Position numbers and translations under genes: made by a program
The notes under the pieces: generated by a model
The model's database searches: none
Told to the model about the DNA's origin: nothing
The model's input: only the letters and a program-made list of their open reading frames with translations
Assembly: GCF_900091585.1 (NCBI RefSeq)
Contig: NZ_FMHT01000003.1
Location: 1,116,001 to 1,180,000 of the forward strand
Source: Micromonospora nigra
Lineage (GTDB): Bacteria; Actinomycetota; Actinomycetes; Mycobacteriales; Micromonosporaceae
Direction: 5' to 3'
DNA: 64,000 nt
In this document: positions 25,217-28,729 of the stretch, piece after piece
How positions within the stretch are numbered: position 1 is the first letter of the stretch
How the letters are laid out: every line of letters starts with the position of its first letter

Positions 25217-28045
25217 TCAGGCGACGACCGAGACCATCCGGCCCGGGACCACGATCACCTTGCGGGGTTCCCGGCCGGCCAGGACGGCGGCGACCGCCTC
25301 CAGGGCCGCCGCGCGGACGTCGGCCTCGGCGGCGTCGGCGGGCATCTCGACCCGACCCCGGACCTTGCCGTTGACCTGCACCGGGTACGTCACCGACTCG
25401 GCCACCAGCAGCGCCGGGTCGGCGGTCGGGAAGTCCACGTACGTCAGCGAGGTGTCGTGCCCCAGCCGGTGCCACAGTTCCTCGGCGACGTGCGGGGCGA
25501 ACGGCGCCAGCATCAGCACCAGCGGTTCGGCCACCTCGCGCGGGGTCTGCGACAGCCGGGTCAGCCCGTTGGTCAGCTCGATCAGCTTGGCGATCGCGGT
25601 GTTGAACCGGATCGCCTCCATGTCGGCGCGGACCCCGTCGACGACCTTGTGCAGCAGCCGCCGGGTGGCCTCGTCGGCCGGCGCGTCGGTGACCCGCGGC
25701 GCGCCGGTCGACTCGTCGACGATCGCCCGCCACACCCGTTGCAGGAACCGGTACGAGCCGACGACCGCCCGGGTCTCCCAGGGGCGGGACACCTCCAGCG
25801 GGCCCATCGACATCTCGTACACCCGGAAGGTGTCGGCGCCGTACGCGGCGCACATCTCGTCGGGGGTGACGACGTTCTTCAGCGACTTGCCCATCTTGCC
25901 GTACTCGCGGCTGACCTGCGTGTCGCCCAGGTAGTAGCCGCCGTCACGCTCGACGACCTCCTCGGCGGGCACGTACGCGCCGCGTTCGTCGGTGTAGGCG
26001 TACGCCTGGATGTAGCCCTGGTTGAACAGCTTGCGGAACGGCTCGAACGACGAGACGTGGCCCAGGTCGTACAGGACCTTGTGCCAGAACCGGGCGTACA
26101 GCAGGTGCAGCACGGCGTGTTCGGCGCCGCCGACGTACAGGTCGGTCCCGCCGCAGTCGCCCTCGCCGCGCGGCCCCATCCAGTACGCCTCGTTCTCGGC
26201 GTCGACGAACCGGTCCGGGTTGGTCGGGTCCAGGTAGCGCAGCTCGTACCAGCACGAACCGGCCCACTGCGGCATCACGTTGGTCTCGCGGGTGTAGCGC
26301 TTCGGCCCGTCGCCCAGGTCCAGCTCCACCTCGACCCAGTCGCGGCGGCGCGACAGCGGGGTCTCCGGGTTGCTGTCGGCGTCGTCCGGTTCGAACGTCT
26401 TCGGCGAGAAGTCGGCCACCTCGGGCAGCTCGACGGGCAGCATCGACTCGGGCAGCGCGATCGCCGCTCCGGTCTCGTCGTACACGATGGGGAACGGCTC
26501 GCCCCAGTAGCGCTGCCGGGAGAACAGCCAGTCCCGCAGCCGGTAGGTGACCGCCCCGCTGCCGTGTCCCTCGGCCTCCAGCCACCCGATGATGCGGGCC
26601 TTCGCGTCGGCCACCTCCAGGCCGTCCAGGTTCAGGCCGCGCTCGGGTGCGGCGCTGTTGACCGCCGGGCCGTCACCGGTGTACGCCTTGCCGGCGAAGC
26701 CCTCCGGCGGCTGCACCGTGCGCACGATGGGCAGGTCGAACACCTCGGCGAAGGCCCAGTCCCGCTCGTCCTGTGCCGGCACCGCCATGATCGCGCCGGT
26801 GCCGTAGCCGGCCAGCACGTAGTCGGCGATGAAGATCGGGATCTCGGTGTCGGTGACCGGGTTGACGGCGTACGCGCCGATGAAGACGCCGGTCTTGTCC
26901 TTCGTGTCGGCCTGCCGCTCGACGTCGGTCTTGGCCGCCGCCGCCTTGCGGTACGCCTCCACCGCCGCCCGCGGGCTGGCGTGCCCGCCGGTCCAGGCGT
27001 CCCGCGTACCGTCCGGCCAGGCCGCCGGCACCAGCGCGTCGACCAGCTCGTGTTCGGGAGCCAGCACCATGTAGGTGGCGCCGAAGATCGTGTCGGGGCG
27101 GGTGGTGAACACCCGGACGGGGGCGACGCTCGTCGCGAAGTCGATGTGCGCGCCCTGCGAACGGCCGATCCAGTTGCGCTGCATCAGCTTGATCGGTTCC
27201 GGCCAGTCCAGGGTGTCCAGGTCGTCCAGCAGCCGGTCCGCGTACGCGGTGATCCGCATCATCCACTGCTTCAGGTTCCGCTTGAAGACGGGGAAGTTGC
27301 CCCGCTCCGAACGGCCGTCGGCGGTGACCTCCTCGTTGGCCAGCACGGTGCCCAGCCCCGGGCACCAGTTCACCGGGGCCTGCGAGACGTACGCCAGCCG
27401 GTGGTCGTCGACGACCGCCCGGCGCTCGGCGACGGTCAGCGCGGCCCAGGGGCGGCCGTCGGGGGTGGGCCGGTTCCCGCCCTCGAACTCGGCGATCAGC
27501 TCGGCGATCGGCCGGGCCCGCTTCGCGTCCGGGTCGTACCACGAGTTGAACACCTGCAGGAAGACCCACTGGGTCCAGCGGTAGAAGTCGGTGTCGATGG
27601 TGGCCACCGAACGGCGCTCGTCGTGGGCCAGGCCCAGCCGGCGCAGCTGCTCCCGGTACCGGCCGATGTTCGCCTCGGTGGTGGTGCGCGGGTGGGTGCC
27701 GGTCTGCACCGCGTACTGCTCGGCGGGCAGGCCGAACGCGTCGAAGCCCATCGCGTGCAGCACGTTGCGGCCCGCCATCCGCTGGTAGCGGGCGAAGCAG
27801 TCGGTGCCGATGTAGCCCAGCGGGTGCCCGACGTGCAGGCCGGCGCCCGACGGATAGGGGAACATGTCCAGCACGTACAGCTTCTCCGCGCCGGCGCGCG
27901 GGTGACCGGGGTCGGCCAGCGGGCCGGTCGGGTTCGGGGCGTGGAAGGTGCCCTCGCGTTCCCAGGTGTCCTGCCAGCGGCGTTCGATCTCGTCGGCCAT
28001 CGCCGCCGTGTAGCGGTACGGGGGAATCTCGCTCTGCTCGCTCAT
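25217..28045 (-). CDS. leuS: Leucyl-tRNA synthetase
   Basis: A 942-residue class I synthetase. HIGH-type motif is [17 protein letters not shown], the KMSKS-type motif [10 protein letters not shown]. The CP1 editing domain contains [14 protein letters not shown], and the zinc/leucine-specific insertions match bacterial LeuS. It charges tRNA-Leu. The ATG at 28045 follows GGAGCGCCGGC, and its first 18 nt duplicate a segment 80 bp upstream. An upstream leader peptide with three Leu codons and a terminator (28214-28314) predicts control by leucyl-tRNA supply. Confidence 0.96.
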
Positions 28046-28125
28046 GCCGGCGCTCCGCTGCGCTCCGCGCCGACATGAGGCACCACCGCACTGATCCTGA
28101 TGATTCGCTCGCTCTGCTCGCTCAT
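28028..28125 (-). repeat. Duplicated 18-bp start segment at leuS, with possible upstream ORF
   Basis: The 18 nt at the leuS start (28045-28028, ATGAGCGAGCAGAGCGAG) recur exactly at 28125-28108, 80 bp upstream. The upstream copy has its own ribosome site (GCGAGGAGAGGCC). It opens a 27-codon frame whose TGA overlaps the leuS ATG, so it could couple translation. It has no Leu codons. The segment looks like a copy of a dispersed repeat rather than a conserved peptide. Confidence 0.55.
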
Positions 28126-28213
28126 GGCCTCTCCTCGCGTGGCTCGGCGGAGTCTCTCGCTGGCTGGTCCCGTGCTCACCGCCCGGCGGGGCGGACGACC
28201 ACCCGCGGGCACG

Positions 28214-28238
28214 AAAAAGCCCCTCACGCATGAGGGGC
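28214..28238 (-). terminator. Rho-independent terminator in the leuS leader
   Basis: Minus-strand GCCCCTCA-TGCG-TGAGGGGC is a perfect 8-bp hairpin followed directly by TTTTT (28218-28214). It lies about 170 nt before leuS and after the leader peptide. It can act as the attenuator of leuS and as the end of the mrp operon. Confidence 0.88.
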
Positions 28239-28239
28239 C

Positions 28240-28272
28240 GCCGTGCTGTCGCGCTCAGCGCATCAGCACGGC
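28240..28272 (-). other. Long leader hairpin overlapping the leader-peptide stop
   Basis: GCCGTGCTG (28272-28264) pairs perfectly with CAGCACGGC (28248-28240). The loop contains a second stem, GCGC-TGA-GCGC. The 5' arm includes the last codons and stop of the leader peptide, so a ribosome stalled on the Leu codons would block it. CGCTGAG (28260-28254) could then pair with CTCATGCG (28233-28227, one bulge) in the terminator, forming an antiterminator. The mechanism is inferred. Confidence 0.6.
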
Positions 28273-28301
28273 CCGGTAAGAAGCAGGAAGACTCCGGCCA
28301 T
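28263..28301 (-). CDS. Leader peptide of the leuS attenuator (12 residues, Leu-Leu-Leu)
   Basis: The frame ATG to TGA encodes [12 protein letters not shown]. Its three consecutive Leu codons are CTG CTT CTT; CTT is rare in this very GC-rich sequence. It is too short for most gene finders. A -10 (TACACT, 28314-28309) ends 7 nt before the ATG, so the peptide would be made from a leaderless mRNA, as is common for actinobacterial attenuator peptides. It is followed by the hairpin and terminator upstream of leuS. Confidence 0.7.
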
Positions 28302-28308
28302 GCACGGC

Positions 28309-28314
28309 AGTGTA
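28309..28314 (-). promoter_or_regulatory. -10 element of the leuS leader
   Basis: Minus-strand TACACT lies 7 nt before the leader-peptide ATG. A -35 is not clear; GACATC about 18 bp upstream is the best candidate. Confidence 0.55.
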
Positions 28315-28345
28315 CCGTGCCGGCGGCTTGCGGATGTCGCCACCG

Positions 28346-28729
28346 TCAGGTGGGACGGTCGGGGCGGCCCGGCCGGTCCCCTCCCCCGGCGACCGGCGGC
28401 CCGTCGTGGTCGTGGTCGTGGTCGTGGAACAGGGTGCCGGCCGCCAGCGGGGCACCCGCCCGGTACGCCGCCCGGGCCAGGGCGTAGCCGCCGACCGGGG
28501 CGGTGAACAGTTGCAGCCCGACGGCCACCAGCACCACCACGGCGGTGCGTACCCCCGGCATCAGCAGCAGCACCCCGAGCAGCACGCAGACCAGGCCCAG
28601 GCTCGCCGCCTTCGCCACGGCGTTCATCCTGTTGTAGACGTCCGGCAGCCGGACCAGGCCCACGGCGCTGATGGCCACCAGCAGCACGCCGACCCCCAGC
28701 AGGGCCGTCCCCGCCACGACCCGGATCAC
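28346..28729 (-). CDS. mrpG: Mrp antiporter subunit G (MnhG)
   Basis: A 127-residue subunit of the Mrp multi-component monovalent cation/H+ antiporter. Three membrane helices are visible. The family motif VRLPDVYNRMNAVAKAASLG falls between helices 1 and 2. The cytoplasmic tail has an unusual HDHDHDHDG stretch, a possible metal-binding addition. GTG overlaps the mrpF stop (GTGA). It is the last gene of the operon. Confidence 0.9.
   Translation of the reverse strand: MIRVVAGTALLGVGVLLVAISAVGLVRLPDVYNRMNAVAKAASLGLVCVLLGVLLLMPGVRTAVVVLVAVGLQLFTAPVGGYALARAAYRAGAPLAAGTLFHDHDHDHDGPPVAGGGDRPGRPDRPT

Follow-up and report, generated by a model that had tools for sequence, protein, structure and literature searches.

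The leucyl-tRNA synthetase gene, leuS, of Micromonospora nigra is very probably preceded by a leucine leader-peptide attenuator, found in a window of 64,000 nucleotides (contig NZ_FMHT01000003.1, positions 1,116,001 to 1,180,000) that is the whole stretch of DNA analysed. An earlier note on this DNA had proposed that leuS is controlled by transcription attenuation through the charging of Leu-tRNA, with CGCTGAG in a hairpin loop pairing with the terminator arm. Control by leader and terminator is strongly supported, on grounds of conservation, covariation, codon choice and precedent in Streptomyces, whereas the CGCTGAG switch is unsupported. From two Streptomyces, for which it was predicted in 2005, the leuS leader is hereby extended to nearly the whole of an actinomycete family, with evidence from covariation and from codons. 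The device is of an ordinary kind, well supported and widely conserved and, as far as folding can tell, its switch departs from the textbook scheme.

We infer that the leader starts, terminates and responds to leucine as proposed, and this holds for its translation, for termination in vivo and for the direction of the response. To judge from the spacing of the parts, transcription would start at or beside the ATG at 28301 and the peptide would be translated from a leaderless RNA. With Leu-tRNA ample the ribosome would pass CTG CTT CTT and transcription would stop near 28214, at the T tract; when Leu-tRNA is scarce, above all the CTC/CTT isoacceptor, the ribosome would stall on the Leu codons and more polymerase would read through into leuS.

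The leader, its relatives and its codons

Table 1. Features of the leuS leader region (window coordinates)
Feature	Position	Strand	Remark
−10 hexamer TACACT	28309..28314	minus	followed by 7 nt to the ATG; predicts start of transcription at the leader ATG (leaderless)
Leader peptide ORF, 12 codons and stop	28263..28301	minus	homologous peptides in 129/130 Micromonosporaceae upstream regions
Candidate regulatory Leu codons CTG CTT CTT	28278..28286	minus	codon choice in 145 leaders
P1 hairpin overlapping the peptide stop	28240..28272	minus	possibly a pause hairpin
Intrinsic terminator stem-loop GCCCCTCATGCGTGAGGGGC	28219..28238	minus	conserved across leaders
T5 tract of the terminator	28214..28218	minus	at least 5 T in the 9 nt past the stem in 141/145 leaders
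CGTGCCC right behind the T tract	28207..28213	minus	TGYCC there in 107/145 loci
27-codon uORF in an 80-bp genus-wide repeat	uORF 28042..28125, repeat 28046-28125	minus	TGA overlaps the leuS ATG
leuS, leucyl-tRNA synthetase, putative regulated gene	25217..28045	minus	TIGR00396, 889 bits (cut-off 548)

The −10, the 7-nt spacing, the ATG and the 12-codon peptide with Leu-Leu-Leu that the earlier note had described are borne out on the minus strand, the ATG being at 28301-28299, the stop at 28265-28263 and the codons ATG GCC GGA GTC TTC CTG CTT CTT ACC GGG CCG TGC TGA. The 9-bp hairpin it had placed at the peptide stop, here P1, has a lower stem in which 28272-28264 pairs with 28248-28240 at 9 of 9 positions and whose 5′ arm contains the first two bases of the stop; beyond one mismatch there is also a 5-bp inner helix. 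Equally sound is its 8-bp terminator ahead of leuS, where 28238-28231 pairs with 28226-28219 at 8 of 8 positions around the loop TGCG, with T5 at 28218-28214. P1 and terminator are mutually compatible and flush with each other. RNA from 28301 to 28208 folds to −49.1 kcal/mol (z −4.0, with 0 of 200 shuffles as good), and the leader terminator is the sole terminator-like site in 27900-28700, 0.1 being expected from shuffles. A simple scan of the same interval gave no sigma-70-type promoter with both hexamers, the −10 standing without a recognisable −35.

Each of 150 genomes searched in the same family has a leuS match, and the upstream DNA was examined for 130 (30 loci and 100 stretches). Peptide, P1 and terminator precede leuS in 129 of these 130 Micromonosporaceae regions, 127 of them recognised by script and two by eye (L131 with a long-looped terminator, L102 with a longer peptide). 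The sole exception, L091 (genome G030), retains the leuS terminator and the motif behind the Ts and has lost the leader peptide. In other families of the class the leader is present in 18 of 28 leuS upstream regions and absent from 10, one of which (L149) is without any upstream DNA; these 28 loci are the best-matching of 118 genomes, many of them with a distant LeuS. Of the 18 leaders, three (L143, L145 and L155) have no T tract and that of L136 is weak. In many genomes of the class the match to the window LeuS is partial, at about 50% identity, with open frames mostly of 800-900 amino acids, and on the sequence these matches look like a second, shorter type of LeuS.

Could such an arrangement come about by chance? 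A scan for a short ORF containing Leu-Leu, together with a terminator and a −10 lying 6-7 nt before the start codon, found a match in 83 of 158 leuS upstream regions; the 158 opposite strands and 3160 shuffles gave no match. When the −10 is dropped from the conditions, the corresponding figures are 84/158, 0/158 and 12/3160, the 84th match (L161) being spurious, and TANNNT lies 6-7 nt ahead of the peptide start codon in 83 of those 84; at L070, L127-L129 and L159 it precedes another start codon than the one listed. A second scan recovered 63 of the 75 regions missed by the first terminator finder and, because it required the −10, the −10 statistic rests on the first scan only. The position of the −10 in relatives, 6-7 nt before the start codon, would put the start of transcription at the leader and not well downstream of 28219.

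The 145 extracted leaders have a Leu run of 2-4 upstream of leuS; Leu-Leu was a condition of extraction, and weight is placed on the 129/130 prevalence and on the empty controls. The earlier note had looked to relatives for a conserved Leu run and conserved pairing, and the Leu run and both hairpins are indeed conserved in them. A motif scan of named genomes gave at least 120 stretches, leuS being at most 600 nt downstream in 113 and the other 7 ending too soon; among the matches listed all are from Actinobacteria (Streptomyces, Micromonospora, Catellatospora, Actinoplanes and kin). The motif CCCCTCMTGYGYGAGGGG has exactly one copy in each of 13 genomes of the same genus, the window's own included, and occurs in 1 of 8 others. 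By the N-terminal 300 residues of LeuS the nearest named locus among the matches listed is that of Micromonospora phytophila, at 92.9%.

The Leu codons of the leaders are of a particular kind. The last one of the run is CTT in 135 of the 145 leaders and CTC in 10, the penultimate one is CTC or CTT in 139, and in 131 the distance from the start of the last one to P1 is 8 nt. Across 54 complete leuS genes CTT accounts for 15 of 3903 Leu codons, with 46 genes having none. The rarity of CTT remarked on in the earlier note is real, since all 68 Leu codons of the window leuS are CTG and none is CTT; CTT occurs 1, 0 and 0 times in three other ORFs of the window. CTC and CTT are presumably read by a single Leu isoacceptor in this organism, and the CTT bias gives a simple prediction of which tRNA is sensed. 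That bias agrees with the selective-charging theory, in which regulatory codons are chosen for their sensitivity to starvation (available part of PMC1183508).

Pairing and the antiterminator question

For covariation, 57 deduplicated sequences, in an alignment spanning Micromonosporaceae and loci with the S. lividans peptide, were compared on five measures with 500 shuffles, which take no account of relatedness. The pairs of P1 and terminator hold in 95.1% of cells, against 91.3% in shuffled sequences, P1 itself being paired in 96.7%, and neither the covariation score nor the count of double-changed cells is equalled in any of the 500 shuffles. Compensatory change can be followed at one P1 pair, which is UA in 41 sequences, CG in 14, UG in 2 and broken in none. 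Less clear are the measures of pairs changed on both sides (22/500 shuffles as high) and of further pair types (6/500). Swapping the partner arm between loci costs 0.88 kcal/mol for P1 and 0.85 for the terminator (se 0.17 each, relatedness not corrected), and among 21 segment pairs tested only P1 and terminator clearly pair better with their own partner; for the start region with the post-terminator motif the own partner is better by 0.45 (se 0.22) kcal/mol, too weak to claim.

Is the switch the classical one? In a trp-type attenuator the stalled ribosome would free the P1 sequence to form an antiterminator with the terminator 5′ arm. We regard this as possible, if unlikely, for leuS. Peptide, P1 and terminator do resemble trp in architecture and spacing, and antiterminators have been reported earlier for Streptomyces leuS, going by the available part of PMC1262725. 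The pairing that the earlier note had offered as the switch, of CGCTGAG (28260-28254) with the terminator arm, finds no conserved support in a test on 145 leaders, and by eye in the window sequence CGCTGAG pairs with CTCATGCG only around a one-base bulge. For a ribosome whose edge is set 13 nt beyond the A-site codon, the test estimated how probable it is that the terminator 5′ arm has already found a partner while the 3′ arm is still to be transcribed. On E. coli trp it behaves as expected, at 0.62 on the Trp codons and 0.01 at the stop, whereas the mean of the 145 leuS leaders is 0.04 on the third-last Leu codon, 0.06 on the penultimate one, 0.18 on the last one and 0.33 at the stop, so that the arm is paired less on the last Leu codon than at the stop. 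With the ribosome edge at 12-16 nt the last Leu codon gives 0.17-0.30, never above the stop. The window alone differs slightly in the direction expected of a trp-type switch (0.14 with the ribosome on the last Leu codon against 0.09 with it at the stop, or 0.33 and 0.25 with the edge one base further). Against such a switch there is also the P1 loop, which avoids the terminator 5′ arm, its own pairing at −5.90 kcal/mol being worse than shuffled at −7.42, and which pairs with the terminator arm of its own locus no better than with that of another. A helix of loop and arm is absent among the conserved alternative helices.

A folding test that works on E. coli trp gives no conserved antiterminator in 145 leaders, and because none was found the classical switch is without support here. 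The folding indicates that the leaders lack a textbook antiterminator or, at the least, have not conserved one, and simple folding predicts a terminator free to form wherever the ribosome stands. Two other helices were considered and rejected, one joining the Leu codons to the terminator 3′ arm (7 bp, complementary in 95% of cells) and one joining the P1 5′ arm to the terminator loop, its complementarity being conserved. In both the own partner is no better than one from another locus, there is little or no covariation, and a stalled ribosome would mask the helix wholly or in part. For one of the two the covariation score is reached by 1 of 500 shuffles, with one double-changing pair and three cells, and this was not counted as enough.

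It is rather improbable, in our estimation, that the leucine attenuator dispenses with an antiterminator, the position of the ribosome on the Leu codons being read out through P1 alone, in an element unlisted in Rfam that is common to several actinobacterial families and senses mainly the CTC/CTT isoacceptor. P1 may act as a pause hairpin, delaying polymerase within the terminator loop so that the ribosome can catch up; in an attenuator without antiterminator, the state of P1, formed or melted, as polymerase moves on from the pause would decide termination. A terminator can do with any loop sequence, yet here the loop is CTGYGY in 108 of 145 leaders, across families (ATGCGT in the window, 28226-28231, minus strand), and contains TGYG in 135, P1 ending 12 nt before TGY/G in 99 of these 135. 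In the geometry of hairpin-stabilised pauses, a matter of the spacing from hairpin to pause site, the distance from the end of P1 to TGY/G would suit, confounded as it is by the fixed position of the terminator. Zengel and Lindahl reportedly found in 1996 that attenuation control in the E. coli S10 operon needs an upstream hairpin. The apparent lack of a conserved antiterminator makes the switching of such leaders directly testable in laboratory Streptomyces or Micromonospora.

Neighbouring genes and known leaders

The earlier note had contrasted the proposed attenuator with the T-boxes for which aminoacyl-tRNA synthetases of actinobacteria are better known. The contrast holds for ileS, which is preceded by T-boxes in several Actinobacteria, but classical attenuators were already predicted in 2005 before leuS of Streptomyces avermitilis and S. 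coelicolor, and attenuators before trpS in Streptomyces (Seliverstov et al., available part of PMC1262725). That the present leader is a T-box, or binds tRNA or another ligand in some other way, is exceedingly improbable. The T-box covariance model has no match to the leader, and in the window and 16 related loci no Rfam family matches it at gathering score and none is credible below, four matches at E<=5 around the leader all being far below gathering score and none a T-box; the leader, at about 90 nt, is built of a peptide ORF and two hairpins. Scarcely any credence attaches to the idea that the terminator is that of the mrp/mnh antiporter operon upstream, with the Leu-rich ORF there by chance. 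In its favour, mnhG, which in the window lies among genes for other antiporter subunits, is on the same strand and has its end at 28346, some 30 nt ahead of the −10. Synteny contradicts it: of 142 leader loci for which 900 nt or more of upstream DNA were available, just 9 have mnhG there, and the 133 without an mnhG match keep peptide, P1 and terminator, so that the leader is independent of the upstream gene.

By homology of sequence the leucine attenuator appears to be of the Streptomyces leuL2 type, a Leu-run peptide, a hairpin and a U-run terminator before leuS. In S. lividans TK24 leuL2 consists of the peptide MRAVRLLLSEPR, leaderless according to transcriptome data, a hairpin and a uridine stretch (available part of PMC8079986); the exact peptide and homologous RNA recur among the loci of this analysis. 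With leuL2 and the Streptomyces leuS attenuators the present leader shares the gene, the short, presumably leaderless Leu-run peptide, the hairpin and the U-run terminator. Of the features of amino-acid leader-peptide transcription attenuators, the Leu-run short ORF (predicted) and an intrinsic terminator between ORF and gene are found, the classical antiterminator is not. The peptide ends mostly in PC in Micromonosporaceae as against PR in Streptomyces, P1 is mostly GTGC:GCAC as against GCGC:GCGC, and P1 loops are often shorter in Micromonosporaceae. The antiterminator reported for Streptomyces leuS, as described in the accessible text, was not recovered in the present leaders.

The LEU element of leuA likewise has a Leu-run leader peptide in Actinobacteria, but it folds as a pseudoknot by base pairing between the Leu codons and the Shine-Dalgarno sequence (PMC1262725, in the part available), whereas the present leader has an intrinsic terminator; in S. 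lividans the leuA leader is, in the accessible portion of PMC8079986, without a typical one. Identity with the LEU element was rejected, the gene here being leuS and a terminator being present. Counting against the Leu-codon attenuator is the similar-looking leader of S. coelicolor ilvB, where, as the available part of PMC1262725 has it, codon changes were without effect on regulation. Mycobacterium tuberculosis ilvB1 is described, in the accessible part of PMC13236596, as having a branched-chain amino acid attenuator with terminator and antiterminator. E. coli trp shares with the leuS leader the control codons, the first hairpin overlapping the end of the peptide, the terminator and a presumed read-through that depends on stalling. 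It differs in having a 2:3 antiterminator, where the leuS leaders have no conserved one in the same test, and the leuS leader has a predicted leaderless start and would control a synthetase, not a biosynthetic operon. Our literature searches gave no report of a leuS attenuator from Micromonospora or Salinispora, and among the papers listed those on Streptomyces named above were the only ones to bear on leuS leaders, though the 2010 survey of Lopatovskaya et al. (Mol Biol 44:128, cited in PMC8269248) may already cover other actinobacteria.

An 80-bp repeat at the start of leuS

From terminator to leuS the distance is 169 nt in the window and 77-117 nt in ten of the closest relatives (L008-L017). 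An 80-bp repeat stands in between in the window, where GAGGAG precedes its uORF and not leuS directly, and the distance from terminator to leuS is lengthened. The unit starts with ATGAGCGAGC, and the gene's own ATGAGCGAGC follows. Each of 13 genomes of the same genus contains 1-52 matches to the repeat and 8 from other genera contain none, and there is no relevant literature report of it among the 10 matches listed of 101. Of 26 loci examined (window, L002, L004, L285-L307), 25 gave 28 units and L302 gave none; 27 of the 28 are exactly 80 bp, extraction having required ATGAG at both ends. The units sit exactly at gene starts, duplicating the ATGAGC start, and tandem copies occur. All 28 have a uORF of 26-27 codons, in two frame variants, with a TGA that overlaps the next ATG (stop-start coupled), and with peptides such as MSERSERIVRLSAVVPHGGTERSGVPA or MSERQRANHR... 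Behind a unit the next frame runs open for 131 codons or more, in many cases as far as the stretch extends, except that three units have a further unit behind them and one a 9-codon stub.
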